NCBI GenBank assembly: GCA_013697045.1
Contig: JACCXJ010000021.1
Coordinates: 1 to 41,637 of the forward strand
DNA from: Gammaproteobacteria bacterium
Lineage (GTDB): Bacteria > Pseudomonadota > Gammaproteobacteria > JACCXJ01
Direction: 5' to 3'
DNA: 41,637 bases
Shown here piece by piece: positions 20,067 to 40,319 of this stretch. The notes under the pieces are model-generated. The model saw only the letters and a list, made by a program, of their open reading frames with translations, had not been told where the DNA came from and searched no databases. The translations under genes were made by a program, and so were the position numbers. Each line of letters starts with the position of its first letter. Position 1 is the stretch's first letter.

Positions 20067-20756
20067 TCGCCAGCTGCTGTTGCAAAAACTCGCGCTCGAT
20101 CTGCCCGCCCAACCGCCACCGAAGATCACCACCGCCGAAGGCGACGTCAGCCGTGGCTGTGTAGTGTAGACCTAGCGGGGTCGCTATCAGTGATATCAAG
20201 GACCTCCGTACCCCCCCGAATCGCCTAAGTCGGGTTAACGCGGATTAGCGCCCTTATCGCGTAACCCGCCTTCCGGTAATCGGTACGGAGCGGTTGGAGG
20301 CGATGCAAGCGGCATGATGGCGCGCAAGACGCATGTTGGACTCGCATCACCGTGGATGCGGCATATCGTCGCGCGACAAAATGCCGCATTCCCAAACGGC
20401 CTTTACCGCATTATGCTGTCCGCCAGTCGGGCGTTTCTGTCGCTGCAGTACGCGTCGGGTAGCGAGCTGGGACCGGGAGCGGGCTCAGGCGGCGGTCGGT
20501 GCAGAGGCGGGTTCGAGGATCCCGATGACGAGGAGCATGTGACGTGACATCAGAGCTTGGCCTGCCTTTGTCTATGGTCTTGTGGGAGTGAGGAGGGCAC
20601 GCAGCTAGAGGTGAGTAGATGAGCCTGCCGGAGTGTGCGGCATCGAAGGGAAGAGCTGGGCGGTTCCGGCCACGCCATTGCACGCAGATTTCGGCGCGCT
20701 GGCCCTCTTTCTTGCGTCTCGGCGGGACACGATAGCACTCGAGAGGAGGAGCAGCG
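20067..20756. other. Intergenic stretch with repeat remnants
   Basis: About 690 bp with no supported gene. The first part (20070-20165) has a short frame reading LLLQKLALDLPAQPPPK on the plus strand that may be a mobile-element remnant, but I cannot assign a family. A REP-like hairpin is listed separately. The rest shows open frames on both strands without ribosome sites or recognisable protein sequence. Confidence 0.3.
20231..20268. repeat. REP-like imperfect palindrome
   Basis: CGGGTTA-a-CGCG, a 15-nt loop, then CGCG-TAACCCG. This is an 11-bp stem with a single bulged A and no T-run. A similar GC-rich arm pair (CCGGGT...ACCCGG) occurs at 34223-34243. Extragenic palindromes of this kind are common in gammaproteobacteria. 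Confidence 0.5.
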
Positions 20757-20978
20757 ATGACCAGGCTTTGGGCAGTTTACAGTACGGTGGATCACCGGCG
20801 GGGGCAGATCCTAGTGGTGACGCAGTCTGTGGACGCCACCCGCCGTACGGCCGACGATGCCGTAAATGATGTCGAGTGGATCGTCGGCGACGGCGAGGTG
20901 GAGCAAACCGAGATCGATCTCGAGGTCCGAATAGATCAAGGGAACGGGCTCGGGCCAAAACGGAGCGCTTCGAGGTGA
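20757..20978 (+). CDS. Small protein of unknown function
   Basis: A 73-residue soluble protein, acidic in its second half (VNDVEWIVGDGEVEQTEIDLEV), with no family I recognise. It is called because of a strong GAGAGGAGGAG ribosome site 6-8 nt before ATG 20757, a compact length and a strong intrinsic terminator about 100 bp downstream. Codon choice is consistent with the region. It may be a stand-alone stress or regulatory protein, but this is unsupported. Confidence 0.5.
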   Translation: MTRLWAVYSTVDHRRGQILVVTQSVDATRRTADDAVNDVEWIVGDGEVEQTEIDLEVRIDQGNGLGPKRSASR

Positions 20979-21210: not shown

Positions 21211-21227
21211 TGCGACATTTTGTCGCA
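21211..21227. promoter_or_regulatory. Palindromic operator-like site 1 (TGCGACA-TTT-TGTCGCA)
   Basis: A perfect 7+7 palindrome with a 3-bp centre, the first of six copies in the window. A possible plus-strand promoter would use TTGTCG (within the site) and TATGCA 17 bp on, but no supported gene begins soon after it. It may instead be a second upstream site for the gene at 21801. Confidence 0.55.
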
Positions 21228-21567
21228 ACTCGCGATCATGGATATGCATTTGTACTACGCGGACATGGAGGCGCGGTGCGTAACGACCGACACGACACAC
21301 CCGGAACCCTCCATGGAATTGCCGCCGCCGGCCGGCGGCGCCGTCGGTGCGGTGGTACCGTAGGTAGGACACCCAGCCCAGCACGGCGCAAGGCAGGAGA
21401 TAGACCGCTTTCCGCCGTCTCAGAGCCAGGCGGGTAGCTCGGCGAGGTTCGAAAGGCACCGCAGGAGATTCGTGTACCAAGGGTGTAGCCGCCCTGCCGC
21501 CCCAGGGTTGGGGAGCGCGCGGCGCTCTTGGCCCGGTTTCGACGTACGCGTGACGGAGGAGGGGGGG

Positions 21568-21606
21568 TGCGACAATTTGTCGCACCCCCCTGTCCCGTGC
21601 TATAGT
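21568..21606 (+). promoter_or_regulatory. Operator-like site 2 and promoter of the Csp-like gene
   Basis: The palindrome TGCGACA-ATT-TGTCGCA (21568-21584) is extended by flanking G6/C6 runs to a longer perfect inverted repeat. It overlaps a possible -35 (TTGTCG). A good -10, TATAGT, lies at 21601-21606. A repressor bound here would block polymerase. The transcript would have a leader of about 190 nt before ATG 21801. Confidence 0.65.
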
Positions 21607-21800
21607 TCCAACCGGAAGGGTGTCACCCAGTGGCGTACGCGCCATGAGGACAAGAGTGCGGCGCCTTCACGGGGTGCGGAGCGAGTTGGCTCTCCACCGG
21701 CACCCCGACCACAGAAAGCGCCGCAGTACGTAGGCACGAGCGTCAAGCTGGCGGTGCGTGCCCTTCCTTTACTGTCTACTCAATCGATAGGAGAGCCATC

Positions 21801-22286
21801 ATGTCAGATGTCGACTTTGTTCCCCGTCACGAGACGGAACACCCGCGCAGGGCCTTTCTCACCGGTGCCGCAGCGGCCGGTGCGGCTGCCCTCTTGGTCG
21901 GCAGTGGGCGTGCTGCCTTTGCGGCACCCGAGAAGCAGCCCGACCACACCCACTCCTGGGCGTACGGCGGCGTCATGCAAGCAGCGACGACGTGCGTGGG
22001 CGAGGGGCACGTGTGTCTCAACCACTGCTTGAACAGCTTCCAGGCCGGGGACAACTCCCTGATCGCCTGCGGAGTCGCAGTACAGGAGACGATTGCGGCC
22101 TGCAATGCGCTGGCGCAGCTCGCTGCCAGTAATTCGAGACACACCAAGGCCTTTGCCGAGGCCTGTGGCGCTGTCTGCAGCGACTGCGAGAAGGAGTGCC
22201 GCAAGCACGCCGCGAAGCACGACGCTTGCGGCAAGTGTGCCGATGCCTGCCAGGGGTTGGTCGGCGAGGTCAAGAAGGCCGCCTGA
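21801..22286 (+). CDS. Tat-exported four-helix-bundle copper-binding protein (Csp1-like)
   Basis: A 161-residue protein. A twin-arginine signal (HPRRAFLTGAAAAGAAALL, R16/R17) ends near AFA/APEK. The mature part is helical and carries 12 Cys in the spacing of the copper-storage (Csp/DUF326) family: CVGEGHVCLNHC, IACGVAVQETIAAC, and AEACGAVCSDCEKEC / DACGKCADAC. In Csp proteins such Cys line the bundle core and store many Cu(I) ions. Tat export indicates the folded-protein route to the periplasm. AGGAG lies before the ATG. An operator-like palindrome with a TATAGT -10 lies upstream and an intrinsic terminator follows, so this is a single-gene unit in the proposed regulon. The assignment to copper is by family. 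Confidence 0.87.
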   Translation: MSDVDFVPRHETEHPRRAFLTGAAAAGAAALLVGSGRAAFAAPEKQPDHTHSWAYGGVMQAATTCVGEGHVCLNHCLNSFQAGDNSLIACGVAVQETIAACNALAQLAASNSRHTKAFAEACGAVCSDCEKECRKHAAKHDACGKCADACQGLVGEVKKAA

Positions 22287-22327
22287 ACGGTGCAGCCCTT
22301 ACGGAGTCACGATCCATAACCACATTT

Positions 22328-22355
22328 GGGCCGCGCCTCAGGCGCGGCCCGTTTT
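22328..22355 (+). terminator. Intrinsic terminator after the Csp-like gene
   Basis: GGGCCGCGCC-TCA-GGCGCGGCCC (10-bp perfect stem) followed by GTTTT, 42 bp after the stop codon at 22286. Confidence 0.9.
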
Positions 22356-22488
22356 CCTCCCTCCTCACGCGTACCAAGCGATCCGATCCTAGGGCGTGGG
22401 CCAAAACGTCCTCATTGGCAGGAGGCCATCGCGCCGGGTATGCTGACCCTTTTCCGGTGGAATCAACAGATCAATCAAGTGTCGTCGC

Positions 22489-23241
22489 TCAGTGAACTCG
22501 ACGAATGGTGATTTTCGCAACCGGGTTCCTCCAGTCGCGCGTGGCCGGATTCAGATTGCTGGTCGAAACGCCCCCGCCCACTCCGTGAATTCCCGAGTGA
22601 ATGTGGACGACGAAATTCTCTGCCGTCCCCAGACCACTGGGCGGCGGCGTCATGCAGTCCGGCCCCGGAATTGAACCCTTGGGGTCACCGGATCTGCAGA
22701 TTTCGTCGTTTCGTTCGGTTCCAGCATCGTAAGCTGGAGAGACCAGGCTTTTCACCTTGTTATCTTCAGGTCCTTCAACTCCGTTCACAGCGAAGAAGGC
22801 ATCGTTGGTTGGAATGAGCATGGCTGCCACACTAATGTGGTCAAATGGGCCCCGGGTCGTTACTGAAAGGGTGACGGATCCACCTGGAGCGAGCAGACCC
22901 ATCGGAAGTAAAGAGCCAGAATCGGTCACATCCAGGACCTCAGGCATTCCACGCAGCAACGCAGTCAGTGGTGCTGTATCTCCATCTTCCGCCAATGTCT
23001 CCAACTGCAGACTGGCCACCTTCCCGAGCTCGAAGAGTTTAAGACCCTTCTCGTGAGTTGCCACCAGAATAGGCGTGAATTGCTGACCTTGAGTGAGGTT
23101 GGTGACCGTGACCTCAAAGAATTGTCCACTCTCTTGTGCGAGAGCCCTGTTGTTCGGTGTGGGCGCTTGCGCGCTTACTACACCCGCCATGATTGCCCAG
23201 GTGAGACCCAAGACCATCGTGATCCTCATTGTCTGATTCAT
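22489..23241 (-). CDS. Exported spondin-domain protein
   Basis: A 250-residue protein. A signal peptide (MRITMVLGLTWAIMAGVVSAQA) precedes a Spondin_N domain: FFEVTVTNLTQGQQFTPILVATH, LFELGKVASLQLETLAEDGD, LLPMGLLAPGGSVTLSV, HISVAAMLIPTNDAFFAVNG, and the end VHIHSGIHG. In bacteria the domain is found in secreted proteins of unclear function and may bind metal through its conserved acidic/His residues. The start at 23241 has GAGG 10 nt upstream; the frame is open earlier but lacks signals. It is the last of four minus-strand genes that could be driven from operator site 3. Confidence 0.85.
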   Translation of the reverse strand: MNQTMRITMVLGLTWAIMAGVVSAQAPTPNNRALAQESGQFFEVTVTNLTQGQQFTPILVATHEKGLKLFELGKVASLQLETLAEDGDTAPLTALLRGMPEVLDVTDSGSLLPMGLLAPGGSVTLSVTTRGPFDHISVAAMLIPTNDAFFAVNGVEGPEDNKVKSLVSPAYDAGTERNDEICRSGDPKGSIPGPDCMTPPPSGLGTAENFVVHIHSGIHGVGGGVSTSNLNPATRDWRNPVAKITIRRVH

Positions 23242-23374
23242 ATCAATCTGCCTCAAAAATATGTGAACGATCCATGACCGGTCGGCAGATTTCCGTCTGC
23301 CGGCCGAAGACCAGCCGGACACCCCTCAGACCTTCACCTTCGTCCTGAACAGGAAAGAGTTACGAAAAGAACTC

Positions 23375-23938
23375 TCATTGATTCTGCGTGATCACCACGT
23401 CCGTACCCGTATGGATGTACCCGGAAGAGCTCGGGCCGTGGCAATGGAACTCGACAGAGTATAGCTCGGCACCCCTCCGCGATTTCGTGACGGTCATCCG
23501 ATAGTTCCCGTTGCCTCCGTCCACGTAGGCCCAAGGGCTGTAACGCCGGTTTCCGTCACCGTTTTTGTCCGTCACGCGAACCGCGGTCCCATCCTTCGCA
23601 ATCGTCACGCTGACCTTAGGCTTATTCCGGCGTGGGAGCTCATCCCGCACGTGGGCCGCGAGGCGGAACGTCGGGGTATCGCCGCCTTCTTCGTTCGAGC
23701 AGGTTACGGAGTAGACATCCGTCGCGCTCTTTTTCTTACCCACAGAGCCCCCCGCGGAATGCCCCAGGACGACCCCGGCCTGGCCGACCGAAAGCAGGAA
23801 CGACAAGGCCATGGCGATGCTTTTGTAGGACGCGTTCATCCTACCGAGCGATCCGATATGCGCCGGCGCGAAACCAGCGTGAGCGATCGCAAAGAGCGGC
23901 GACAGGCTGGTAACGGGCTTCTCGAAACGTAGATACAT
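23375..23938 (-). CDS. Exported protein of unknown function with a second, truncated relative at 30.8 kb
   Basis: About 187 residues. A hydrophobic segment (SIAMALSFLLSVGQAGVVLG) acts as signal or anchor, then a beta-rich domain contains DVYSVTCSNEEGGDTPTF, VSVTIAKDGTAVRVTDKNGDG and a C-terminal ELYSVEFHCHG...IHTGTDVVI. Two Cys (TC and HC) may form a disulfide. No family is recognised. ATG 23938 has a strong AAGGAGG about 11 nt upstream. Met at 23839 would give a more conventional short signal peptide, so the start is uncertain. A C-terminal fragment of a homologue lies at 30812-30913, just upstream of tlpA. Confidence 0.75.
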   Translation of the reverse strand: MYLRFEKPVTSLSPLFAIAHAGFAPAHIGSLGRMNASYKSIAMALSFLLSVGQAGVVLGHSAGGSVGKKKSATDVYSVTCSNEEGGDTPTFRLAAHVRDELPRRNKPKVSVTIAKDGTAVRVTDKNGDGNRRYSPWAYVDGGNGNYRMTVTKSRRGAELYSVEFHCHGPSSSGYIHTGTDVVITQNQ

Positions 23939-24073
23939 AATAGTGACTTCCTCCTTCTCCATCGACGGTTCAAACCGGGCGGTGTTCGAGCGGGCCCCAG
24001 CCGGCGGCGTTTACTCGGCCGCGAAGGCGACCACAAGGCGCATTCGGCCACGCGCGCCACGGCAAATCCGGCG

Positions 24074-24364
24074 TTAGTGCCGCCGCGCGTGGGCGAGCCG
24101 TCGACGCTCTTCATTCGTTTGATGTTCAATCTCGCGGATTTTCCGGGCCGCTGCCGTTCGTACCGTCTCGTCGCTGTCGGCCAAGGCTTGTTCGAGGAGC
24201 ATGCCGCCCTCCCGGCCTGCCTTGGTGCTATCCACCGCCATCAGCCGAACGGTGGCGTCGCGATCCCGCAGGGCATCGCGCAACACCTCGATCGCCTGGG
24301 GACCGCCCTCTTTCGACAAGGCCCAAACGCCTTGAGCACGAACGTCCGCGATGTCAGCAAGAGA
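24074..24364 (-). pseudogene. HEAT-repeat fragment, out of frame with the STN-like gene
   Basis: About 95 codons encode two to three HEAT/PBS-lyase-type repeats: DVRAQGVWALSKEGGPQAIEVLRDAL, then RDATVRLMAVDSTKAG and ETVRTAAARKIREI. The frame has only a TTG near its start and no ribosome site. Upstream it meets the STN-like gene shifted by one base exactly where that gene stops (VTVSC-stop against SLADIADVRAQ). The two probably formed one exported STN-plus-HEAT protein, broken by a single-base frameshift (mutation or sequencing error). Confidence 0.6.
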
Positions 24365-24674
24365 CCGTGACCCGCTCCCGTGGCGCGCCCGCGTCGTGAA
24401 AGCGGATACCCGTTTGCTTCGTCAGCTCGTCCAAGAGGCGCTTCCATGGGACCTCTTCCGCGGTCACAGTCACCCGTCCATCATGCGCATCGACATCCAA
24501 GGAATACGCGCCACCGGAATCGAACGCGGCGCGCGAAAGGCCTTCCGGTACAGCGATAACCGAGTTACAGAGCAACAATCCCGGAGCGAGACTGAACCAT
24601 CGCCGGCCCGGCGCAAGCGAAACCGCGCGCCTAATCCTCGCGGTAAGAACGGTTACACGGGCTCTTTCCGTCAC
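24354..24674 (-). CDS. Short exported protein with STN/secretin-like domain (possibly 5' half of a frameshifted gene)
   Basis: A 106-residue frame. A basic N-terminus and weak hydrophobic stretch (WFSLAPGLLLCNSVIAV) precede a segment of the STN type: GRVTVTAEEVPWKRLLDELTKQTGIRFHDAG, ending RVTVSC. STN domains bind or gate at the outer membrane of TonB receptors and secretins. It is short for a complete protein; the HEAT-repeat frame that follows is offset by one base. GTG 24674 has AGGTGGG about 10 nt upstream. It is the first gene after operator site 3 and its TAGACT -10, so it likely heads a minus-strand operon. Confidence 0.6.
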   Translation of the reverse strand: MTERARVTVLTARIRRAVSLAPGRRWFSLAPGLLLCNSVIAVPEGLSRAAFDSGGAYSLDVDAHDGRVTVTAEEVPWKRLLDELTKQTGIRFHDAGAPRERVTVSC

Positions 24675-24746
24675 ACGTCACCCACCTGACCGGCTCCCTC
24701 CGCCAAGGCTCGCCACCTTTCGGAAACGGCGCGGTAATCTAGCGAG

Positions 24747-24792
24747 AGTCTAAACCACTCGGCTTCGCCTGTACATGCGACAAATTGTCGCA
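24747..24792 (-). promoter_or_regulatory. Operator-like site 3 with minus-strand promoter
   Basis: The palindrome TGCGACA-AAT-TGTCGCA (24776-24792) abuts, on the minus strand, a -35 TGTACA (24775-24770), a 17-bp spacer and a -10 TAGACT (24752-24747). It drives the STN-like gene at 24674. The arrangement is nearly identical to site 6, down to the TAGACT element. Confidence 0.7.
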
Positions 24793-24902
24793 CCCCCTCC
24801 TGTTCGTGGCGGCATTGCCGGCACAGATGACCCGGGCGGGGGGCTCGCTATGGCGGTTCCTCGCCTTGGTTTGCTTCGTGGCCGCAGGCAGTGTGCAGGG
24901 GG

Positions 24903-24948
24903 TGCGACAATTTGTCGCATTGACAAGGCCGTGCACGCTACATAATCA
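24903..24948 (+). promoter_or_regulatory. Operator-like site 4 with plus-strand promoter
   Basis: The palindrome TGCGACA-ATT-TGTCGCA (24903-24919) is followed at once by TTGACA (24920-24925) and an AT-rich CATAATCA 15-17 bp on. It points to the exported protein at 25132. Sites 3 and 4 lie 111 bp apart (edge to edge) between divergent promoters. Confidence 0.7.
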
Positions 24949-25131
24949 TGCCTCATTGAGCAGAGGATAACCATAGTACCGTACCGCCTAAATCGGGTGG
25001 GGGCTTGGTTTGAGTCCGGAGCCCACGGGTGTTGCTGTGCGCGCCAGACGTTGTATGAGGTGCGCGCTCAACAAGACGTGGGAGCCGTTCTGCTTCTAAC
25101 AAGTCCCAGATTTCAGATTAAGGAGGAGGGT

Positions 25132-25932
25132 ATGCCAAGTGCAAAAATGCTAAGACGACTGATGACGTGCTCCGTCATCAGTTTACTGTACGGGGTTTCG
25201 GTGGGCGCGCTCGCCCACACCGGTGTCCGCGATCAAGTCACATCGTCGGCAACCTCGACGACCACATCCAATAACGCCTTCACCGTGCCGCATGGCTGCT
25301 CCGGCGCCGAGGGGGGCCCCGATCCCTTACCGGTGATTGGACAGAGCGCCGTCTTTCCTTTCGGAAACGCGAGCCAGGCCGTATGGGTGAGGCTGGGAAA
25401 CCCCAATACGTCCATCGATCCCGTCACGGTCATCGGAGGCGATGGATTTCTGAACCTGGCCGTAACCGGGATTCAGGACGGATCCCTCTTCGACATCCAA
25501 CGGGAGGAGCCCGGAGCCTTGGGTGCCATCCCACATGCGCTCAACTGGAAGGGCGGTAGCTTGGATACCTCGATGCTGGGATACACGCTGTTCCGCGTGA
25601 GCGTGCCGACCATCGTGAACAACTGTGTAGCGAACCTCCGGATCCGTATCGCGGTCGCGAACTGGTGTGAAGAGAAGCAGAACGAAGCCACGGACGGTAA
25701 CAACAATCGGGCCGACTGGTGGTTCACGGGCGAGACCGGGACCCAGAGGTTCACGGACCCGGATCTGATCCAACCGACGTACTGGGCGACACTGACGGTG
25801 AAGAATCCCAACGCCACCGACGCCAATTGCCCCGCGGACCAACGCTTCGACGTCGCGGTCATGCCGAGTGGCGCGGACATCGATACGTACCTCCCACTTC
25901 CGGGATTCACCAAATTTCCCCCGCCGTTTTGA
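25132..25932 (+). CDS. Exported protein with a YcnI-like N-terminal motif
   Basis: A 266-residue protein. A signal peptide (RRLMTCSVISLLYGVSVGALA) is cleaved before HTGV, which would leave an N-terminal His. Soon after comes NNAFTVPHGCSG, matching the VPHGC signature of YcnI/DUF1775 copper-binding proteins, in which the mature N-terminal His is a copper ligand. The rest (VWVRLGNPN, NWCEEKQNEATDGNNNRADWWFTGE, ANCPADQRFDVAVMPSGAD) is not a clear YcnI match, so this is a distant or distinct family. AAGGAGGAGGG precedes the ATG. It is driven by the promoter at operator site 4 and closed by an intrinsic terminator, so it is a single-gene unit. Confidence 0.7.
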   Translation: MPSAKMLRRLMTCSVISLLYGVSVGALAHTGVRDQVTSSATSTTTSNNAFTVPHGCSGAEGGPDPLPVIGQSAVFPFGNASQAVWVRLGNPNTSIDPVTVIGGDGFLNLAVTGIQDGSLFDIQREEPGALGAIPHALNWKGGSLDTSMLGYTLFRVSVPTIVNNCVANLRIRIAVANWCEEKQNEATDGNNNRADWWFTGETGTQRFTDPDLIQPTYWATLTVKNPNATDANCPADQRFDVAVMPSGADIDTYLPLPGFTKFPPPF

Positions 25933-26003
25933 TGGCCGCCTGGTGACATAATTTCCGGGCGGAACAGAGTCCTTGCAAGCAGCGGGGATTGCAGGATTTT
26001 GAC

Positions 26004-26039
26004 CCCAGGACCTTCGAGGGCGAGGGTCCTGGGCTTTTC
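26004..26039 (+). terminator. Intrinsic terminator after the YcnI-like gene
   Basis: The arms CCCAGGACC and GGTCCTGGG (9 bp) surround a 12-nt loop and are followed by CTTTTCT. It lies 70 bp after the stop at 25932. Confidence 0.75.
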
Positions 26040-26129
26040 TAGTTGTGACTTCAAAGGGTGGGGTGGGTTGGCCGCGCTGTTTGCGGCGTAACTCACCAAC
26101 CGTCGCTCCCAGGCCGACGCTTTACGTAG

Positions 26130-26345
26130 GTTCTTTCACACTCTCGGGATCCGTCGAGCATCGCGAAGGCCGGTGCTTCCGGTGTGGAATTCCTTTCCGA
26201 GATGCGGCCTTCGCCGTTGGGCGATAGCGACGCCCGCGATGCGCTCGGCCTCCGAGGGGCTTGCGACAAAGAGCCGGATCTCACAAGGAGAGCCTATCGC
26301 CTTGAAGGCGGTCCGGTAACCCTCGAGCACGCCACGAGTCTCCAC
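26130..26345 (-). pseudogene. apbE: ApbE remnant (first and last codons only)
   Basis: From ATG 26345 the frame reads METRGVLEGYRTAFKAIGSP and then EIRLFVASPSEAERIAGVAIA, clearly related to the start of the intact ApbE at 34284 (YRSAFKAMGSPCEI). It then jumps to sequence that, in another frame, matches the very end of that protein (APAFAMLDGS against APAFAVLDES). About 260 internal codons are missing, including the FMN-binding and Asp-rich metal residues, so it is dead. It sits 16 bp after the DUF3570 stop, showing the original operon order DUF4266-DUF3570-ApbE. Confidence 0.85.
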
Positions 26346-26361
26346 CGTGGTTCTCCGATGC

Positions 26362-29049
26362 TCAAAACTTCAGCTTGAAGGTCGCGAACAACGAGCCGTC
26401 GCGCTCGAGCTGGAAGCCGTTGAAGTCGTCCTCTACGGGTTGCAGCCACTCGACGCTCAGACGGTTGTCCTTGAGCCCCGCGATCGGTATCTCGGCGCTG
26501 AGCCCGAGGCCCACATCCCAGAAGCGCCTGCCATAGTTCTGCGGGAAGTCCACCGGGCTCACTTCCGAGTGCACGCCGTTGAACTCGCCCTCGATCTCAC
26601 CTTGGGTCGTGTAGACGCCGCGCACCGAGGCGGACAGCCAGTCGGTTAGGCCGAAGCTCCCCCAGGCGGTGGCCTGGAACTGATCGCCCAGCGCATAGCC
26701 GGATTCGTTTTCGTCTTCGAGACGATGGATCCCGCTCAATTGTCCGCCCCAGGACCAGCGCGCCGCCTGTCCCGTATAGGTGAGGCTCGGCAGGAAGTCC
26801 CAGGTGCCGCTGCCGAGCCGCATCGCATAGTGGATGAAGCCCTGGTCGATTCCATGGGTGGGCCTGAGCTTTTCGTCGACGGAGCCGGTCGGCGCGCTCA
26901 CGCCGAGACCCAGGTGCATGTGATGTCCGGGGACATCGAACAGCTTGAACAGGGCAAACATGGACGTGTCGCCGACGCCGCCGGTGGCCTCGGTGTGGAT
27001 CACGTGGTGGAACTCCGTGCTGTCGAGCGGGGGGGCACCCTCGAGCGCCTCCTGGTGCATGTCCATGTCGACGAACTGCGGCATGAGCATCAGGTTCAGC
27101 CAGTCGGTCGGCGCGTACATGATATCGAGCATGTGCATGTGCATGGTGTGCTCGACCGGCCTCACTTTGCAGGGGATGTCGCCACAGGCGTCACCGGCGA
27201 TGACGGCATCGCCCACGGCGTCCGAGCCACGCAGGATATCACCGTCCTGGCGGTGGAACATGTAGCGGTAGCCGACCATGAAGTCACCGGCTGCGGGCAG
27301 CATGTGGTCGAGCATGACGCCCGCCGGCGCGTCGCCGTGGCCGTGGCCGTGCGCGTCCTCATCATGGCCACGATGGCCGCCGTCGGCGGCGGACCACGCC
27401 GCGTCGAGGGCGACGTTCAGTGCGGCATTGACCTGGTAATAGCTGAAATCGGCGTAGTCGCCCTCACCGCCGCCGCCCAGCTTGAGCCCGCCCTCATGGG
27501 TGTAGTATTCGAAGCCCGCCTCGAGACGGACACCTGTCGCGAATTCCTTGCTCACGATCAGCCCGCCGCTCAAGGCGCCGAAGCCCGACAAGCGGTGGTC
27601 GCTCGAGAAGTCGTCGGGAAGCTTTTTCCGATCGAAGAGGACGGGCTGCCTGGAGATGACGAAGGGCCGGTAGAAATCGGCGGCGTCCTGCGAGTAATAG
27701 CGCACCCAGGGGGTCACGGTCCATCCTCGGCCCAGGGGTTGTCCAAAGCTCGACTCGAAGGTGTGAGCGTCGATGCCCCAATCATCGGAGAACAAGCGGT
27801 AGCCGAGATGCAACGACGCATCGAAAGGTTCTATATATTGTACATAGCGCGCATCCCAGGTCCATTGGTTACGCCTATCGGGCCGCTCTTCGAGCAAGGC
27901 CTTCACCGTCCCGACGAATCCGCCTGGAGGCGCCAAGAGTTGTTGCTCGGGATCGATGAACGCGACCTCGACCACCTTATAGGGGTTTTCGAGAAACCCG
28001 GTGCTCCGCGTATAACCGAGGTTGGTCTCGACGAACGCGTCCTTGGTCAGGACCTGCGTCAGACCGAAACGCGTAGCCCAATCCTGCCGTTCGCCCTCCA
28101 GAGTAACGGCTGTGGCCGCCGTGTTTGGTAACGACCTCCTGTCGATCTGGTCCGTAAATGCCGAGGTGTCGATGTAGGGAAGGGTGTCGTGATCGAGGAT
28201 GGCCTCGGTGTCGCTCCGGGTGTAGCTCAAGCCCAGGTTCAAGGTGGTGCGTTTCTGGTCGAGGTCCCAGCGCCCGGCCAGGCTGCCCCACCGCGATTCA
28301 TAGTCCCTTTCCGTAGAAAGGCCCCCGCCCACGTCCAGTGCCGCCTCGTCCCACTCGTAGCTGAACCTGAAATCGCCCTGTTTGCGGGTCTCGGGCGAGG
28401 CCGACGAGAGCGTATGGACCAACTGTGTGTCCTTACCGACCGATTGGCCGAGCTCGTCGACGGTGATCGGGTTGAATTGAGAATCGAAGAACAGATTACC
28501 TTCGATGAAAGGCGTCGCGCCCGAGACCCCATCGGGCGACGTCGGACAATTCCCCCCCGAACAGTTCGCACCAGTGGCGGCGAATGCCCGCGGCACGGTG
28601 GCGATCGGCGTGGCCCCGGACCAGGTGTCCTGCACGTAATTGGCGAAGAACTTCAACCGGTCGAAGAGCGTGAGGCTCGCGCTGCCCTGGAGGCTGTCCA
28701 CCAAGAGGGGATCGAATTTGCTCTCCACGCCGAAGAGATTGCGTTCGCCCTCCTGGTAACGGCCATACTGGAAGCCGAACTCGTCGCCCTCGGCAGCGGG
28801 AGTGGGCGATGGCACGAGCCCCGGCAAGGCCAGGGCGGCGGCCGTCAGTGCCCGTGAGGACACCCCCGCCGGCATTGCCGATGGCGGGCCGGCGTCGGCC
28901 GATTGCAACCCCCCGCTAAATGAGAAGAGGGGCAGGGGCCGGCCGAAACGGCACGGTGCGAGGCGCGTGAAAAACCGGCAGGCGGCGCGCACGCCTCTCC
29001 CGATGGCGCCGAGAGGCCGTGAGAGCCGGCAAAGGAACCTACGGCACAT
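26362..29049 (-). CDS. DUF3570 outer-membrane barrel with two predicted FMN-attachment motifs and His/Met-rich segments
   Basis: An 895-residue protein (837 if Met 28875 starts it). A signal-like stretch (ALTAAALALPGLVPSP) precedes the mature start AAEGDEFGFQYGRYQEGER typical of DUF3570. The remainder is alternating aromatic beta-strands ending in Phe (ATFKLKF), as in outer-membrane barrels. Two D-x-x-S-G-A-T motifs occur, DTWSGAT (141-147) and DGVSGAT (173-179), the consensus ApbE uses to attach FMN to Thr. Metal-binding-like segments are HRGHDEDAHGHGHGD (559-573) and HTMHMHM (634-640). Length suggests two barrel domains. Translation follows DUF4266 by 51 bp with AAGGGG before ATG 29049. The product is probably a flavinylated outer-membrane redox or metal protein (inference). 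Confidence 0.85.
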   Translation of the reverse strand: MCRRFLCRLSRPLGAIGRGVRAACRFFTRLAPCRFGRPLPLFSFSGGLQSADAGPPSAMPAGVSSRALTAAALALPGLVPSPTPAAEGDEFGFQYGRYQEGERNLFGVESKFDPLLVDSLQGSASLTLFDRLKFFANYVQDTWSGATPIATVPRAFAATGANCSGGNCPTSPDGVSGATPFIEGNLFFDSQFNPITVDELGQSVGKDTQLVHTLSSASPETRKQGDFRFSYEWDEAALDVGGGLSTERDYESRWGSLAGRWDLDQKRTTLNLGLSYTRSDTEAILDHDTLPYIDTSAFTDQIDRRSLPNTAATAVTLEGERQDWATRFGLTQVLTKDAFVETNLGYTRSTGFLENPYKVVEVAFIDPEQQLLAPPGGFVGTVKALLEERPDRRNQWTWDARYVQYIEPFDASLHLGYRLFSDDWGIDAHTFESSFGQPLGRGWTVTPWVRYYSQDAADFYRPFVISRQPVLFDRKKLPDDFSSDHRLSGFGALSGGLIVSKEFATGVRLEAGFEYYTHEGGLKLGGGGEGDYADFSYYQVNAALNVALDAAWSAADGGHRGHDEDAHGHGHGDAPAGVMLDHMLPAAGDFMVGYRYMFHRQDGDILRGSDAVGDAVIAGDACGDIPCKVRPVEHTMHMHMLDIMYAPTDWLNLMLMPQFVDMDMHQEALEGAPPLDSTEFHHVIHTEATGGVGDTSMFALFKLFDVPGHHMHLGLGVSAPTGSVDEKLRPTHGIDQGFIHYAMRLGSGTWDFLPSLTYTGQAARWSWGGQLSGIHRLEDENESGYALGDQFQATAWGSFGLTDWLSASVRGVYTTQGEIEGEFNGVHSEVSPVDFPQNYGRRFWDVGLGLSAEIPIAGLKDNRLSVEWLQPVEDDFNGFQLERDGSLFATFKLKF

Positions 29050-29100
29050 CGCGCCCCTTAGGGTACGAGGAGGTCCTCAGTCTAGGACTGACATCGGAAG

Positions 29101-29325
29101 CTAGTAGCAGCCACAACCGCCACCCGCGGCGGTTCCGCCGGCCAGCGCCGCCTCGCGGCTCATATAGGTGTGCGCGCGCAAGGCACCTAGCGCCGGGTGG
29201 GGTTCCAAGGCCATGTGCGGCTTGGCGAGACGGCCGCGTTCCCACGGGGCCACCGGCGCGCAGCCCGAAAGCCAAACGCCCAACCCGAGCAGTAGCGCCG
29301 CCCATGCCCGTTTTGTTTTCTTCAT
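29101..29325 (-). CDS. DUF4266 small lipoprotein
   Basis: A 74-residue protein. A signal peptide with lipobox (LGVWLSGC, Cys at about residue 22) is followed by LAKPHMALEPHPALGALRAH, then TYMSREAALAGGTAAGGGCGCY. The Gly-rich CGCY terminus is the family hallmark and may bind metal. It should be anchored to the outer membrane, next to the DUF3570 barrel encoded 51 bp downstream. GAGGGA precedes ATG 29325. Operator-like site 5, with a minus-strand promoter, lies about 150 bp upstream. A frameshifted second copy is at 31572-31795. Confidence 0.85.
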   Translation of the reverse strand: MKKTKRAWAALLLGLGVWLSGCAPVAPWERGRLAKPHMALEPHPALGALRAHTYMSREAALAGGTAAGGGCGCY

Positions 29326-29471
29326 CGTAGTCCCTCGTCGAACGCGGGGGTGACCGGCCTGCGGGGGCCTCCGCCAACGAACAGCAGCGCCTTGACCGAT
29401 CTGCTGCCCGAGCAATGCTCCGTAGCGAGCGGGTACGCGATCGTTCTTCGTCATGGCTGCGGAGCATTCGC

Positions 29472-29518
29472 ACCGTACCACGATGCCTCCAGCCTTGTAA
29501 ATGCGACGAGCTGTCGCA
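29472..29518 (-). promoter_or_regulatory. Operator-like site 5 (variant) with minus-strand promoter
   Basis: The palindrome TGCGAC-GAGCT-GTCGCA (29502-29518) keeps the outer six bases of the other copies. On the minus strand it abuts TTTACA (29501-29496), an 18-bp spacer and TACGGT (29477-29472). It drives the DUF4266-DUF3570 operon. Confidence 0.6.
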
Positions 29519-29641
29519 CCCTCGTACGGCACCGAAACTGGCTCGCGGTGGCAATTCTGGCGCATTTGCACCTGTAGATCAATCGCTTACACACGGCCTT
29601 CCACTACCCTTCGGCTAGGCATCTGCCGTTCGGAAAGCGTA

Positions 29642-29667
29642 GCGGCTCGCCGCTATTTGCGAGCCGC
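29642..29667. repeat. Perfect 9-bp inverted repeat
   Basis: GCGGCTCGC, 8-nt loop, GCGAGCCGC. It has no T-run and lies in a 500-bp stretch without genes. It could be a REP-type element. Confidence 0.45.
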
Positions 29668-29770
29668 GGAGTCGAAGTCCGGCGCCAGGCTTAGGGCCAC
29701 GACGCCGCCCGTCGACTCCGGCGCTCTGCGACTACCCCTCGGGGTTGTCCACGTTTCCGGAAGCGGCACG

Positions 29771-29908
29771 TCTTTACTCCCTCTCCCACCGGGAGAGGGT
29801 GGGGGTAAGGGGATCAAAATCAATGAAAACGCTCGATTTGATTCCCCTCATCCCCGGCTTTCGCCGGGGCAGGCTCTAACCTTCTCCCTGAGGGAGAAGG
29901 GACTCCCA
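29771..29908. repeat. Paired REP-like element (CTCTCCC hairpins)
   Basis: Two hairpins face each other. On the left, CCCTCTCCC-ACC-GGGAGAGGG is followed by TGGGGGTAAGGGGATCAAA. On the right, TTCCCCTCATCCCC is followed by CTTCTCCCT-GA-GGGAGAAG. The outer arms are inverted copies of each other, and a small hairpin CCCCGGC-TTTC-GCCGGGG sits inside. This is the common interspersed CTCTCCC/GGGAGAG repeat of proteobacteria. It may form transcript-stabilising or terminating structures. Confidence 0.7.
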
Positions 29909-30250
29909 TACTTGTTGAAGTGGTTCTGTACAACATTGGGTGTGTTTAGAAATACCGCAGCAAATGCGGGGCGATGTCACGAGCCTCCGCAATGAGACGC
30001 GCGATGGAATCGCCCGCATCGAGATCCGTCTCGGGCTTGGTCAAGCAGGCGCTTGCGGGCCTATTGGGCGTGTCGGCATCCGATCGCGACGAGAATCCGC
30101 GCGCTCAAAAGCCGCATCCGCAGACTGGATCTGAGCAATTAGGGACGGTGTAGCGAGTGCCGGGGCCTCGGCCGCATGCCGTACGTCTTCGGCACGCAGA
30201 CAGCACGCTCTTTCTGACCCTTGTTGATGTGTGGAGGGGGGGCCAGGGGG

Positions 30251-30296
30251 TGCGACAATTTGTCGCATTGACACCCCGAACTGCGTGCAATAGACT
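30251..30296 (+). promoter_or_regulatory. Operator-like site 6 with plus-strand promoter
   Basis: The palindrome TGCGACA-ATT-TGTCGCA (30251-30267) is followed directly by TTGACA (30268-30273), a 17-bp spacer and TAGACT (30291-30296). This is the clearest promoter of the set. It points toward the truncated homologue at 30812 and tlpA at 31032, with 500 bp of insert-like DNA in between. Confidence 0.75.
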
Positions 30297-30811
30297 CAAA
30301 CGACTGTCGTGGCACTTGCTATGGGTAGAGATCAGGATAATACGGCGATAGTACAAGAGGTTACAGCGCAAGATCTTGCAAGGAGCGATGCTCTGCGGTG
30401 GGAGTTCAACCGTCTCACAAGGGACTTATTCGCGGTGCAGCCTATACGGTTACCGGCGGCGCGGGAGCAGCGTGCGGGCACACTCGGCCCATGCGCGATG
30501 TTGATTTCGATATCCAAGGTTCAAACCACCGGGTTTCAGCCAGTCAGCTTTAGCGCCGCCCTCTAGGCCGCCGACCAGTGGCACGTCGGTCAAGTCGAGA
30601 GGCTTTTTTTAAGCCGGGGGCCACTCTTTGCGGGCTTTCAGTCTTCGGCCCCGGCGCGCCGGAACCCACCGGCTTTAGCCGGTGGTTGTCTAGTCAATGA
30701 CAGTACGCGAACGCGGGTTAAACACGGTTAGGCGGAGACCTGGCCTGTTTTTGCTGGTGCCCGGATTGGCACTGGGCGACAATGCTATAGCAGCTCCTGA
30801 CGCGTGCGGAT
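30297..30811. other. Gene-free stretch with a long hairpin, probably inserted DNA
   Basis: No supported gene between promoter site 6 and the truncated homologue. A perfect hairpin CCACCGGC-TTTA-GCCGGTGG lies at 30666-30685, preceded by another GC-rich arm pair (CCCCGGCGCGCCGG). A short frame near 30309-30566 has no ribosome site or recognisable domain. Since the homologue's start should be here, this DNA probably replaced it. Confidence 0.4.
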
Positions 30812-30913
30812 AAATCCTCAGCGGGTGCGGAGACTTACTCGCTTGAATTCCACTGCGAGAGCAGCACGGACATTCATACCGGTTCCGAAGATGTTCAGCT
30901 TCAGAACCAATAA
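30812..30913 (+). pseudogene. C-terminal remnant of a homologue of the 23375-23938 protein
   Basis: The frame reads KSSAGAETYSLEFHC, then ESSTDIHTGSEDVQLQNQ and stop. It aligns with the end of the exported protein at 23375 (KSRRGAELYSVEFHC and IHTGTDVVITQNQ). Only the last 33 codons remain. Its position shows that a relative of that exported protein once headed the tlpA operon under operator site 6. Confidence 0.75.
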
Positions 30914-31031
30914 TAACTACGGCGAGGGTAACTACGGCGAGGTTGGGAACGCACGTGCCGGGATCGCGGGCGTTTCTCCTGGATCGATGAAAGATAGGGC
31001 CAACGGTGCGGTCTCTGCCACCGCGGACAAG

Positions 31032-31547
31032 ATGAATCAGCGGATCATAGTCGCCTTCTTATGCGTACTGACGTTGGCTCTTCATCGGAACGCCGACGGC
31101 TTCGAGGCAGGTCACGCGGCACCCAACTGTTCATTGACGCCGGTCGGCAATGAACAACGCTATGACATGGATCAATTCCGCGGCAAGGTGCTGTACGTCG
31201 ATTTCTGGGCCTCCTGGTGCTCCCCCTGTGCGCAGTCCTTTGCCTTCCTGAACGATCTGGATACGGAGTTGCGCGGCCGGGGCCTGCAAGTTCTGGCGAT
31301 CAACTTGGATGAAAGACCTGAAGACGCGAAGGGCTTTCTTGCGAAACACCCGGCGACCTTCCCCGTGGCTTTTGATGCGGGGGGACGGTGTCCACAGGAC
31401 TTCGGCGTCCAAGGCATGCCGTCGTCCTACCTGGTCGACCGCAAGGGCATCGTTCGGCACGTGCACCTGGGCTTTCGGCGCGGGGAGGCGGAGAAACTCC
31501 GTGGGCTCGTAGAACACCTGCTGGCCGAGGTTCCCGAGGACGAATAG
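31032..31547 (+). CDS. TlpA-like thioredoxin-fold disulfide reductase, exported
   Basis: A 171-residue protein. A signal peptide (QRIIVAFLCVLTLALHRNADG) precedes a thioredoxin fold with VLYVDFWASWCSPC (active-site C63-S-P-C66), NDLDTELRGRGLQVLAINLDE, and the cis-Pro loop GMPSSYLVDRKG. TlpA/ResA proteins reduce specific disulfides in the periplasm, often for haem or copper protein assembly. Here a partner could be the Cys-rich DUF4266 lipoprotein encoded next (inference). The frame is open upstream to 30804, but that part overlaps another gene remnant. Met 31032 gives a normal signal peptide, though the ribosome site is weak. It is the only intact gene of its kind in the two operon copies. Confidence 0.87.
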   Translation: MNQRIIVAFLCVLTLALHRNADGFEAGHAAPNCSLTPVGNEQRYDMDQFRGKVLYVDFWASWCSPCAQSFAFLNDLDTELRGRGLQVLAINLDERPEDAKGFLAKHPATFPVAFDAGGRCPQDFGVQGMPSSYLVDRKGIVRHVHLGFRRGEAEKLRGLVEHLLAEVPEDE

Positions 31548-31571
31548 CACCCTCCGGTCGGTCCTCCCTTG

Positions 31572-31795
31572 ATGAAGAAGGCCAACCGACTGTTGACGGC
31601 GCTGCTGCTCGGGCTGTGTGTCGGGCCGTCGGGCTGCGCGCCGGTGGCCCGTGGGAACACGGCAATCTCGCTCAACCGCACATGGCCTTGGAACCCAACC
31701 CCACGCTGCGCGCGCTCCGCGGGCATACCTATATGAGCCGCGAGGCGGCCGTGAGGGGCTCTGCTGCCGGAGGCGGTGGCTGCGGATGTTACTAG
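31572..31795 (+). pseudogene. DUF4266 lipoprotein, second copy, frameshifted
   Basis: It starts MKKANRLLTALLLGL with lipobox GPSGC, then leaves frame after CAPVA. The second frame continues PWEHGNLAQPHMALEPNP and ends RGSAAGGGGCGCY, matching the intact copy at 29101-29325 throughout. One C is missing from the run at 31648-31650. This is real decay or a homopolymer sequencing error. It lies 24 bp after tlpA and upstream of the deleted DUF3570 copy, preserving operon order. Confidence 0.85.
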
Positions 31796-31829
31796 GCCGA
31801 CGCCAAGGTGGCCTCATTCCCCGGGGTTC

Positions 31830-32290
31830 GAGTACGCGACGGATCGCACGCGACTGAACGCCGTCCCTCATTGTCTCTCCGCCCTGGGCGCAGGGTTGCG
31901 CGCTGCTTTCCGGTATCTCACGGGGTGTCTTGTACGGCACCTCCGCAGGAGGCCGGTCTTGGCGCTCCAGTCCGCGCCTGGCGACGCAAGCCAGCGCTTC
32001 CTCGCGGGCGCTGACGGCCCCGCCGCCCTGGCCCTGCCCGGCCTAGCGCCGTCGCCTATTCATGCCGCCAAGGGTGACGATTTCAGCTTCCAGTATGGCC
32101 GCTACCAAGAAGGCGAGCGCGACCTCTTCGGCGACGACGCAAGGGGAGATCACGGGCGAGTTTAACGGCGTGCACTCGGACGTAGGCCCGGTGGATTTCC
32201 CGATGAACTACGGCGGGCGGTTCTGGGACGTGCGCTTCGGCCTCAGTGCCGAGGTGCCGATCGGTGCGCTGAAGATCTGTCGCCCGATGC
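31830..32290 (+). pseudogene. DUF3570 barrel, second copy, large internal deletion
   Basis: The beginning (AALALPGLAPSPIHAAKGDD, FQYGRYQEGERDLFG) matches the intact DUF3570 protein to about residue 106. At about 32135 it jumps to TQGEITGEFNGVHSDVGPVD and FWDVRFGLSAEVPIGALK, matching residues about 815-860. About 2.1 kb is missing, including both FMN-attachment motifs, and the last strands are absent. It cannot form a barrel. Unlike the single-base changes nearby, this deletion cannot be a base-calling artefact. Confidence 0.85.
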
Positions 32291-32307
32291 CGATCCATTG
32301 GATCGGA

Positions 32308-34283: not shown

Positions 34284-35279
34284 ATGGTTTTAAACGTGAC
34301 TGGCGTGAGGTCGTACCGCTCTGCATTCAAGGCGATGGGCTCTCCCTGTGAGATCCAGCTCTTTGTCACCAGCCATGCGGAGGGCGAGCGGATCGCGGGA
34401 ATCGCGATCGCCGAGGTCGGTCGCCTGGAAGCGCGTTATTCGCGCTTTCGCAGCGATAGCTTTCTATCGGAGATCAATCGCGTAGCCGCCCGTAGGGGAC
34501 GCATTTCCGTAGACGAAGAGACTGCGGGGCTGCTCAATTACGCCGCGACCTGCTATCGCGAGAGCGATGGGCTCTTCGACATTACCTCCGGTATATTGCG
34601 TCGCGCATGGCGCTTTGATCGAGGCACGCTGCCCGATGAGGCACAGATCCAGGGTTTGCTCGATAAGGTCGGATGGCACCGGGTCCGCTGGGCGCCCCCG
34701 GTCCTCGAATTCCCATTGCCGGGTATGGAGATTGATTTCGGCGGCGTCGTCAAAGAATATGCCGTCGACCGGGCGGCAACGCTTTGCTGGGAGGCCGGGG
34801 CGCGATCCGGCCACATCAATTTGGGCGGCGACATCAAGGTCATCGGGCCTCGTCCGGACGGCAGCCCGTGGCGGATCGGCATACGCCATCCTCGTCGCCC
34901 GGGGGCCCTTATACAAACGGTCTCGCTATTCCGCGGCGCACTTGCCAGCAGCGGCGACTACGAGCGTTGCATCATGCTGGACGGTGTGCGTTACGGTCAT
35001 ATCCTCAACCCGAGAACCGGTTGGCCGGTGCGCTACTTGGCATCGGTCAGCGTAGTCGGAGATCTGTGTCTCATCGCGGGTAGCGCCTCGACGATTGCCA
35101 TGCTCAAGGAGGCTGCTGGCCCGGCATGGCTGGTGGGCATGGGTATGCCCCATTTCTGGGTGGATGTGAACGGCGAGGCCGGAGGTTCGCTAGCGGCATC
35201 GGCCAGCGCCGAAGGCTGCGTCTCGGCGCAGGGCGGCGCACGTGATGCACCGGCCTTTGCGGTGCTCGATGAATCCTGA
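34284..35279 (+). CDS. apbE: FAD:protein FMN transferase (ApbE)
   Basis: A 331-residue enzyme that transfers FMN from FAD to Thr/Ser of target proteins in a D-x-x-S/T-G-A-T motif. The signatures visible are FKAMGSPCEI, FLSEINRV, LFDITSGILRRAWRF, the core EIDFGGVVKEYAVDRA (usually DLGGIAKGYAVD), HINLGGDIKVIGPRPDG, LASSGDYE, YGHILNPRTGWPV, and the C-terminal AGSASTIAML (usually ADALSTA). The frame shows no signal peptide or lipobox, unlike many periplasmic ApbE proteins; the remnant copy at 26345 begins the same way. The likely substrate is the DUF3570 barrel encoded at 26362-29049. No clear ribosome site precedes the ATG. A decayed spermidine-synthase-like gene follows by 27 bp. Confidence 0.9.
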   Translation: MVLNVTGVRSYRSAFKAMGSPCEIQLFVTSHAEGERIAGIAIAEVGRLEARYSRFRSDSFLSEINRVAARRGRISVDEETAGLLNYAATCYRESDGLFDITSGILRRAWRFDRGTLPDEAQIQGLLDKVGWHRVRWAPPVLEFPLPGMEIDFGGVVKEYAVDRAATLCWEAGARSGHINLGGDIKVIGPRPDGSPWRIGIRHPRRPGALIQTVSLFRGALASSGDYERCIMLDGVRYGHILNPRTGWPVRYLASVSVVGDLCLIAGSASTIAMLKEAAGPAWLVGMGMPHFWVDVNGEAGGSLAASASAEGCVSAQGGARDAPAFAVLDES

Positions 35280-38317: not shown

Positions 38318-38545
38318 GGGATCCAATCCCTAGGAAGGTGATCCGGTGCCCAATGCCGGGCGATGATGGCGAGGGTCACACGATAGCAGATATCCCCGCA
38401 GACCAACAAGACGAGAGATCCCAGGCATCGGTAGCGTGATAGTTTACGGCACGCTCTTGACCTGTTCACATCCCTGGGCCTTATCTCTGCCCGTGCCGCC
38501 GTTGCATAGATCCCTGCCAGAACCTCCGACAAGCCGGTCCCTACC

Positions 38546-39293: not shown

Positions 39294-39857
39294 TCACCGG
39301 TCGGGTTCGACGATCCCACACGCGACCCGCGCTCCCCCCGCGCATCCGGGTACCGGCCCGGCCGGGCAGAAGGTGTCGGGATCGGCATGAATGATAAAAA
39401 CGCTGCCGTCCGAGTCGAACAGCGAAAGCGGGCCGGGGGAAAGGGTGAAGCGGGTCGTCTTCGTCCGTAGCCGCCCGCGGCCTGACGGGGTCACTACGAC
39501 GTTGATGAGATCACCCAAGTGAAAAGGATGATTACCGTCCGGAGATGAGTTCCCGTTCGGTCCCGGATCAAAGTGCCCGCCCGCCGCGGCGCAGGGTTGG
39601 CAGCTCGCAACCTCGTGGATATGCACCGCATGCCGTCCTTCGGGCAAGCCCTGGACGAAAAGCCTGACGTCGATCACCTTGATCCCGTTCGCGGAGCGGC
39701 GTTCGATGAGCCGGGCGGTGCCCGAGATGGCCGGATCCGTACAGCCGATGATCTCCGCCGTTGCTCGGGCGCTCACCTGGTTTTGGGCGGCGCTTGCGCT
39801 CACGCTGATAAGACCAGCCACGACGATCAGACCCGCGCATATGCTTTGCACTTTCAT
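39294..39857 (-). CDS. sodC: Cu/Zn superoxide dismutase, exported
   Basis: A 187-residue periplasmic enzyme that disproportionates superoxide. A signal peptide (SICAGLIVVAGLISVSASA) is followed by copper ligands in HAVHIHE (H79, H81), the bridging His in GGHFDP (H95), zinc-site HPFHLGD (H113, D116), a C-terminal copper His in FIIHADPD, and GARVACGIVE with the disulfide Cys and active-site Arg. The zinc-loop His is displaced relative to E. coli SodC, as in a subset of the family. AGGAG 7 nt before ATG 39857 fixes the start over earlier in-frame Met. It is next to a di-haem peroxidase and is another copper protein in this region. Confidence 0.9.
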   Translation of the reverse strand: MKVQSICAGLIVVAGLISVSASAAQNQVSARATAEIIGCTDPAISGTARLIERRSANGIKVIDVRLFVQGLPEGRHAVHIHEVASCQPCAAAGGHFDPGPNGNSSPDGNHPFHLGDLINVVVTPSGRGRLRTKTTRFTLSPGPLSLFDSDGSVFIIHADPDTFCPAGPVPGCAGGARVACGIVEPDR

Positions 39858-40319
39858 TTTCGCTCTCCTATTCATCAGAATCGGACCAACAGGTTCGGCC
39901 GTGTCTGACCTCTCTCGCCCCCGGCGGGCGAGCCGGCCAGGATCGGCACCAGTACGATGAGCCACGACAACGACACGGCACGTAGCGAATGACGCATGTC
40001 CTTCACTCTTTTCGGTCAGCCCGGGCCGGCGCTCGGGTGTTACGGAGCCGGCCGCCGAATGCTACTCAGTCAAGCTACGCGAGTCAGTGAAATAATACCA
40101 GAAGCCTCGCAGTCTGCCGAGGGACTGGGCGGGCATGGGTCCCCGCGCGCCGTTGTCATCTACGCCGCGTGGGGCGCCCGTTGGCCTGCTTCTCGAGTAG
40201 GACCTCCTTGAGACCCGGGTGCGGAAGGGTGCTCCCGTCGATCGTGTCCTCGCGACGGAAGCTGACCCGGGCTTTTGCGTCGCTGACGACGACCTTGATT
40301 TCCTTGAGGCGTTCGCCGG
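39858..40319. other. Intergenic region with a possible gene fragment
   Basis: No intact gene. On the minus strand near 40160-40320 a short frame reads KEIKVVVSDAKARVSFRRED and ends KQANGRPTRRR. It looks protein-like but has no start or family I recognise. The sodC promoter should lie close to 39880-40000; none is clear. Confidence 0.3.

Follow-up and report, generated by a model that had tools for sequence, protein, structure and literature searches.

RegB/RegA of R. capsulatus involves a response regulator of the same family as the one that we propose to act in a gammaproteobacterium (hereafter the host), and one of its ChIP sites, GTGACAATTTGTCCC ahead of cydA, nearly equals the host box (PMC5359404). 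The R. capsulatus sites are degenerate and serve a global regulon with 61 ChIP peaks (PMC5359404). On the other hand, the host boxes are near-perfect, keep a regular distance to the -10 element and cluster almost entirely at a single locus of exported copper/redox genes. PrrA of R. sphaeroides, RegR of Bradyrhizobium and RegA of Acidithiobacillus also belong to the family of the host RegA (PMC4263372, PMC4064962, PMC5506826). For PrrA no strong consensus emerged, and for the Acidithiobacillus regulator none at all (PMC4263372, PMC5506826); the half-sites of RegR vary in spacing (PMC4263372, PMC4064962, PMC5506826). RegA-family regulators are widespread, but their DNA motif is degenerate or absent according to published work (PMC4263372, PMC5506826).

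Two further systems touch the target genes. In the methanotroph Methylomonas sp. DH-1, RegA upregulates a TonB receptor and a tonB operon, assigned to iron uptake (PMC13274454); these are the gene classes that we find most commonly behind the box in other genomes. The text of that paper contains neither the word "motif" nor "consensus", and its available part shows no Csp1 or DUF3570 module. Furthermore, flavinylated clusters of DUF3570, DUF4266, thioredoxin-like and ApbE proteins have been described (PMC8238504), and our locus holds all four components. That report deals with flavinylation and its text does not contain the word "copper"; no RegA control is apparent in its available part.

We analysed a stretch of 41,637 nucleotides (the window), in which the palindrome TGCGACA-N3-TGTCGCA is exact at 21211, 21568, 24776, 24903 and 30251 and has one mismatch at 29502, so that all six sites of the preliminary description were located. 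Allowing up to three mismatches, the pattern has 9 matches in the window vs 2.4 in shuffles (largest shuffle 6). A tandem double box, absent from the earlier list, adds a seventh place with canonical geometry. In the following list of predicted sites, the composite pattern is box + TT + TANNNT.

20357..20388, + strand: predicted tandem double RegA box, TGCGGCATATCGTCGCG / CGCGACAAAATGCCGCA, 15 bp apart (pattern search)
21211..21227, + strand: predicted RegA box, TGCGACATTTTGTCGCA (pattern search)
21568..21584, + strand: predicted RegA box upstream of csp1 (pattern search)
24776..24792, - strand: predicted RegA box, TGTACA-N17-TAGACT, -10 at 24747-24752 (1 mismatch to the composite)
24903..24919, + strand: predicted RegA box (pattern search, composite comparison)
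29502..29518, - strand: predicted variant RegA box, TGCGACAGCTCGTCGCA, ahead of DUF4266-DUF3570 (TTTACA-N18-TACGGT)
30251..30267, + strand: predicted RegA box, TTGACA-N17-TAGACT, -10 at 30291-30296 (0 mismatches to the composite)

The double box is followed by TTCCCA-N17-TATGCT, with the -10 at 20412-20417 and 0 mismatches to the composite; the same tandem arrangement precedes regB in locus L189. The -35/-10 elements described earlier are found at 24776(-), 30251(+), 24903(+) and 29502(-), and TAGACT is indeed the common -10 at 17 bp for 24776 and 30251. At 24903, TTGACA lies at 24920-24925 and the -10 is either TAATCA at +23 or CATAAT at +21; here and at 29502 the -10 is one or two bases off. 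The remaining two sites depart from this layout. At 21211 the -10 is weak (TGTACT, 21251-21256; 3 mismatches to the composite), and at 21568 it is TATAGT at 21601-21606, just 16 bp away. Since the latter sits 7 bp closer, the palindrome overlaps the -35, and this non-canonical layout could mean repression at that promoter.

Most probably, the 17-bp palindrome is bound by RegA, the redox-response regulator of a two-component system (PrrA/ActR/RegR/RoxR family). Published motifs of the family were compared by inspection. The R. capsulatus motif SSGNVRDNHYSNCSS fits all six sites as well as 20372, but SSGNVRDNHYSNCSS is very degenerate and is therefore weak evidence on its own; the RegR motif GNGRCRTTNNGNCGC fits fully at 21211 alone, and the others are off at one or two central bases. 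The host RegA is encoded on a separate contig, C164 (1122-1640; 259 bits, the next regulator scoring 92), with the gene of its sensor kinase RegB adjoining it, and the regulator is thus encoded outside the window, as had been supposed. It consists of a receiver and a Fis-type HTH (PF00072, PF02954) that aligns with the PrrA structure 1umq, and it carries the helix MHRRTLQR as in PrrA. The RegB translation holds GGAANPF (the GGxxNPF quinone motif), the H-box HELGTPL and INRCKSIL, whose cysteine we read as equivalent to the redox cysteine of RegB. NF033791 and NF033792 are the best families for RegA and RegB, yet neither protein reaches its NCBIfam equivalog cut-off (202 bits vs 250 for RegA, 256 vs 350 for RegB), and therefore we claim only a family-level assignment. 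No palindrome precedes regBA in the host or in genome G001, which also counts against the RegA reading. The response regulator encoded in the window itself (13801-15168) was rejected as the binder, being of the NtrC type and not RegA.

The preliminary description had taken the palindrome for the operator of a dimeric repressor, perhaps of the BlaI/CopY type. Such a repressor, or another one-component copper sensor, would suit an inverted repeat at the promoters of exported metal-protein genes, and one BlaI-family gene is indeed present in the host (C382:1795-2139, 68 bits). However, among 369 genomes of the host's class, convincing BlaI-family genes occur in only 3 of the 15 that carry the exact motif, whereas RegA is present in 15/15, vs 121/369 overall (Fisher p 2.9e-8; p 2.8e-7 without genomes G000 and G001; the family- and order-level samples comprise two genomes only). 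Moreover, the box recurs at regB starts: 30 loci selected by RegA alone, and hence free of motif selection, contain the palindrome in 19 cases (mean 0.49 expected from 199 permuted palindromes), and 18 of these 19 sit at the start of regB. RegA lies within 8 kb of the palindrome in 16/118 motif contigs. We therefore regard a BlaI/CopY-type operator as very improbable, and both the type and the sign assigned earlier are probably wrong, given these distributions and the activator-like geometry described below. Even less credit is due to a dispersed repeat or mobile element lying by chance in intergenic DNA, to which we give practically no weight. Near-identical copies within 10 kb, G-runs on one flank and two pairs at 127 bp would agree with it, but a genome-wide pattern search gave only 6 exact copies in 4.57 Mb (vs 1 for the reversed pattern), five within the window contig and one on contig C107, in an assembly that is 90% complete. 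With six copies, i.e. not hundreds, a REP-type repeat is excluded; the flanks are unrelated apart from the G-runs, and the relation of the palindrome to the -10 and to RegA spans Beta- and Gammaproteobacteria. The idea of an operator-like palindrome with a small regulon at promoters of exported metal/redox genes is upheld.

It could also be argued that RegA binds the boxes but mainly represses, occluding RNA polymerase and opening the genes upon loss of RegA phosphorylation. The boxes abut or overlap the -35, which is covered at 21568, and in R. capsulatus RegA acts as an activator as well as a repressor (PMC5359404). Two window promoters, 24903 and 30251, already have the consensus TTGACA, and 21211 and 21568 are without the canonical layout, all of which runs counter to an activator model. 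Nevertheless, over 118 other contigs a -10 is found at precisely 23 bp from the palindrome in 75 orientations vs about 13 at other offsets, and the -35 is generally poor. A repressor needs no fixed -10 distance, so this combination counts against repression, which we consider unlikely as the main mode. That the box keeps one position, immediately ahead of a -35 that is poor in most cases, instead points to activation by RegA, in a class II activator geometry.

The genes near the boxes are the following.

21801..22286, + strand: Csp1-family four-helix copper storage protein, Tat signal (TIGR04401, 123 bits, cut-off 100)
22489..23322, - strand: exported protein carrying a Spondin_N domain, at the end of the minus-strand gene run below box 24776 (PF06468, E 4e-7)
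23375..23962, - strand: exported protein (blastp 29-37% identity to proteins near TlpA and boxes in Nitrosomonas, G322)
24354..24674, - strand: gene nearest downstream of box 24776, earlier labelled "STN-like" (no Pfam match)
25132..25932, + strand: exported protein, earlier labelled "YcnI-like" (no Pfam match)
26362..29049, - strand: DUF3570 protein (PF12094, 397 bits)
29101..29325, - strand: DUF4266 lipoprotein-like protein, C-terminus CGC (CXC) (PF14086, 69 bits)
31032..31547, + strand: TlpA/redoxin-type thioredoxin, signal peptide (PF08534/PF00578)
31682..31795, + strand: second DUF4266 protein, C-terminal part from an in-frame ATG (PF14086, 60 bits, ORF 31388-31795)
34284..35279, + strand: ApbE flavin transferase, the expected DUF3570 partner (PF02424, 239 bits)

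Profile matches bear out the earlier labels Csp1, DUF4266, DUF3570 and TlpA/redoxin; "STN-like" and "YcnI-like" correspond to no Pfam family. In Nitrosomonas, weak homologues of the 25132..25932 protein (blastp E as low as 2e-8) are encoded next to the same boxes. The DUF3570 protein has two SGAT flavinylation motifs (residues 144 and 176), and with the CXC of the DUF4266 protein these correspond to the definition of a flavinylation cluster ([S/T]GA[S/T] in DUF3570) in PMC8238504. No box of its own was seen for the ApbE gene. TlpA is the first long gene past box 30251, about 735 bases beyond the predicted start; scanning the window against Rfam yielded no match, and therefore the stretch between this promoter and TlpA is explained by no known RNA family. 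Behind the box in other genomes lie mostly TonB receptors, and in Nitrosomonas the TlpA/DUF4266/DUF3570 module also adjoins such boxes.

From these sites, genes and their geometry we infer, with considerable confidence, that RegA binds the palindrome and recruits polymerase in class II style, turning the redox output of RegB into a local copper/redox regulon. A RegA dimer would bind GCGACA-N3-TGTCGC just upstream of the -35, with the palindrome centre near -44, and would bring RNA polymerase to promoters with a -10 at 23 bp from the box. RegB senses the quinone-pool redox state in relatives and would here set the output, which comprises copper storage by Csp1, the TlpA/DUF4266/DUF3570 module and further exported proteins; the copper function of these targets is deduced from their families. 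The system would accordingly belong to a known redox regulon family and not to a novel regulator, although we found no published description of a box of this quality with this target set.

A wider generalisation is tentative, and we hold it somewhat doubtful: a near-invariant, rigid class II RegA box in Beta- and Gammaproteobacteria might define a regulon devoted to periplasmic redox and the supply of copper, which in organisms with copper monooxygenases (the host, Nitrosomonas) would include Csp1 and the flavinylated DUF3570/DUF4266/TlpA module, with the quinone redox state, and perhaps copper binding by RegA, setting copper supply. The palindrome with its 23-bp offset would make the core RegA regulon of these classes readable from sequence, the orphan flavinylation module would gain a candidate regulator, and a quinone-redox sensor would be linked to copper storage/uptake genes in methane and ammonia oxidisers. 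Since R. capsulatus RegA itself binds copper (PMC9147068), this copper link is directly testable.

The host, related to USC-gamma, carries a copper-dependent methane/ammonia monooxygenase (pMMO/AMO). Carriers of AMO/pMMO are over-represented in motif genomes (3/10 vs 12/359, p = 0.006), an enrichment that is weak because two of the three belong to one family. The two palindrome pairs spaced exactly 127 bp lie one in the window and one on C107; a mobile element as the source of these equal spacings was rejected, as the pairs have different flanks and the one in the window is accounted for by divergent promoters. Box pairs 122 and 128 bp apart occur in Nitrosomonas loci.

All six palindromes of the preliminary description are present in the window, five exactly and one with a single mismatch. 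A genome-wide pattern search of the host genome (G000; 4.57 Mb, 417 contigs, 90% complete, with the window as the entire contig C18) returned six exact 17-mers, five in the window and one on contig C107, against one match for the reversed control pattern, which excludes the hundreds of copies that would mark a dispersed repeat.

In the class sample, the exact palindrome TGCGACAAWTTGTCGCA was found in 15 of 369 genomes and the control pattern in one. At several of these loci its neighbours encode a kinase resembling RegB and a regulator resembling RegA, for which NCBIfam gives ActS/PrrB/RegB and ActR/PrrA/RegA as the best family names. With a RegA profile, 121 of the 369 genomes were positive, including all 15 motif genomes (Fisher p 2.9e-8; 2.8e-7 once the host and its nearest relative G001 are removed; genomes being counted without regard to kinship). 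Conversely, when 30 loci were chosen solely by their RegA, 19 had the palindrome (≤2 mismatches), whereas 199 permuted palindromes averaged 0.49 on the same loci, with a maximum of 3; the query profile was built from four motif genomes, so that the 30 loci include three exact-motif genomes and the test is largely, not wholly, motif-independent. In 18 of these 19 loci the palindrome lies at the regB start; no box was found upstream of regBA at the host locus. A BlaI/CopY-type repressor had been proposed instead; convincing genes of that family are present in only 3 of the 15 exact-motif genomes, and we rejected this candidate. The original observation is right and the regulator guess probably wrong: judged from sequence, the palindromes at these copper and redox genes are probably RegA boxes, unusually good in quality and regularly placed.

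The host RegA (C164:1122-1640) scores 259 bits, the next-best regulator 92. The adjoining RegB carries GGAANPF (quinone motif) and HELGTPL (H-box), followed by a Cys. RegA contains the MHRRTLQR helix and an HTH that can be aligned to the PrrA domain of known structure, 1umq. Since both proteins score under the NCBIfam equivalog cut-offs, their assignment goes no further than the family. The Cys in LTECAGNV of the host RegA aligns with the PrrA Cys of the same helix, and we take it to be the equivalent of RegA Cys156. RegA has been reported to bind copper and to dimerise via Cys156 (PMC9147068). ChIP-seq gave the recognition sequence SSGNVRDNHYSNCSS for R. capsulatus RegA (PMC5359404; PMC5506826) and no strong consensus for PrrA (PMC4263372), and none could be predicted for Acidithiobacillus RegA (PMC5506826). 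This box, its spacing and its target set were not found described in the literature searched, which covers few subscription papers.

Aligned in the promoter direction, the palindrome is followed from the very next base by a -35-like hexamer, 17 bp and a -10. This layout holds in full at 24776(-) and 30251(+), as at the C107 site and both G001 sites, and to within one or two bases at 24903(+) and 29502(-); 21568 departs from it, with a -10 only 16 bp off. A composite pattern (box, TT, and TANNNT at +23; ≤3 mismatches) matched eight places in the host genome versus three per strand for the control. The four matches with 0-1 mismatches all lie inside the window and include a new site, 20373, which belongs to a tandem pair of boxes (20357/20372); a tandem double box also precedes regB in locus L189.

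A one-genome-per-species scan gave at least 123 sites on at least 118 contigs; the matches listed are mostly from Beta- and Gammaproteobacteria, some in other phyla being probable chance matches. Among the matches listed, 75 orientations have a -10 of at least 4/6 at offset 23, versus about 13 at other offsets; for a -10 of at least 5/6 the counts are 39 and about 2. In the 52 listed promoters with TANNNT at +23, the first T of the -35 is kept in 50 and the second in 36, the remainder being weak. This layout would be that expected of an activator bound beside the -35, with the palindrome centre near -44. Of the 118 contigs among the matches listed, 16 have RegA inside the 8 kb retrieved, with about 0.3 predicted at one copy per genome (our estimate). 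At regBA boxes, the -10 at +23 faces regB at some loci and the divergent gene at others. In L046, L071, L074, L132 and L180, one box separates regB from a divergent gene for an exported protein or a TonB receptor, the canonical -10 facing away from regB; in L185, which shares its genome with L046, TATAAT stands at +23 in both directions.

Among the matches listed, TonB-dependent receptors make up 22 of the 48 genes behind +23 promoters; the copper-receptor model TIGR01778 is matched to some degree by 12 (best E 2e-214), but receptors of this kind also cross-match heme, B12 and siderophore models. The others include SCO1/SenC, NosL, BNR-type, ExbB and TonB proteins and RegB-like kinases. A methanotroph RegA is reported to raise a TonB receptor and a tonB operon (PMC13274454). 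The predicted window targets are Csp1, a spondin-domain protein, two more exported proteins, DUF4266-DUF3570 and TlpA-DUF4266, with ApbE farther along. DUF3570 is described as an ApbE substrate clustering with thioredoxin-like and DUF4266 proteins (PMC8238504). The DUF3570-DUF4266-TlpA cluster occurs in at least 10 motif-derived loci, from nine Nitrosomonas and the AMO-bearing genome G322. Further features are as follows.

20757-20978 (+), small unlisted ORF (73 aa) downstream of the double box 20357-20388, with GGAGGAG as a good ribosome site
30297-31031 (+), about 735 bases between the 30251 promoter and TlpA, neither a clear gene nor an Rfam match
31776-32304 (+), remains of another DUF3570 gene, with an internal deletion, behind TlpA-DUF4266, its pieces matching intact-copy residues 13-113 and 807-869 in different frames
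36908-38326 (-), distant MbnH/CCP-like di-heme protein (weak match), without its own box
39294-39965 (-), Cu/Zn superoxide dismutase, without its own box
L024:3148-4230 (-), on C107 behind its box, DUF3450 joined in frame to a DinB-type polymerase C-terminal domain (IMS_C): a decayed gene, a fusion or an assembly chimera

The host also has a gene for a monooxygenase subunit of the pMMO/AMO type (C66:186-890, locus L215; PF02461, 391 bits), and a second subunit-like gene comes next. G001 corresponds to a USC-gamma MAG (MUGK01000134, 'Chromatiales bacterium USCg_Taylor'; same site position), a lineage of atmospheric methane oxidisers.
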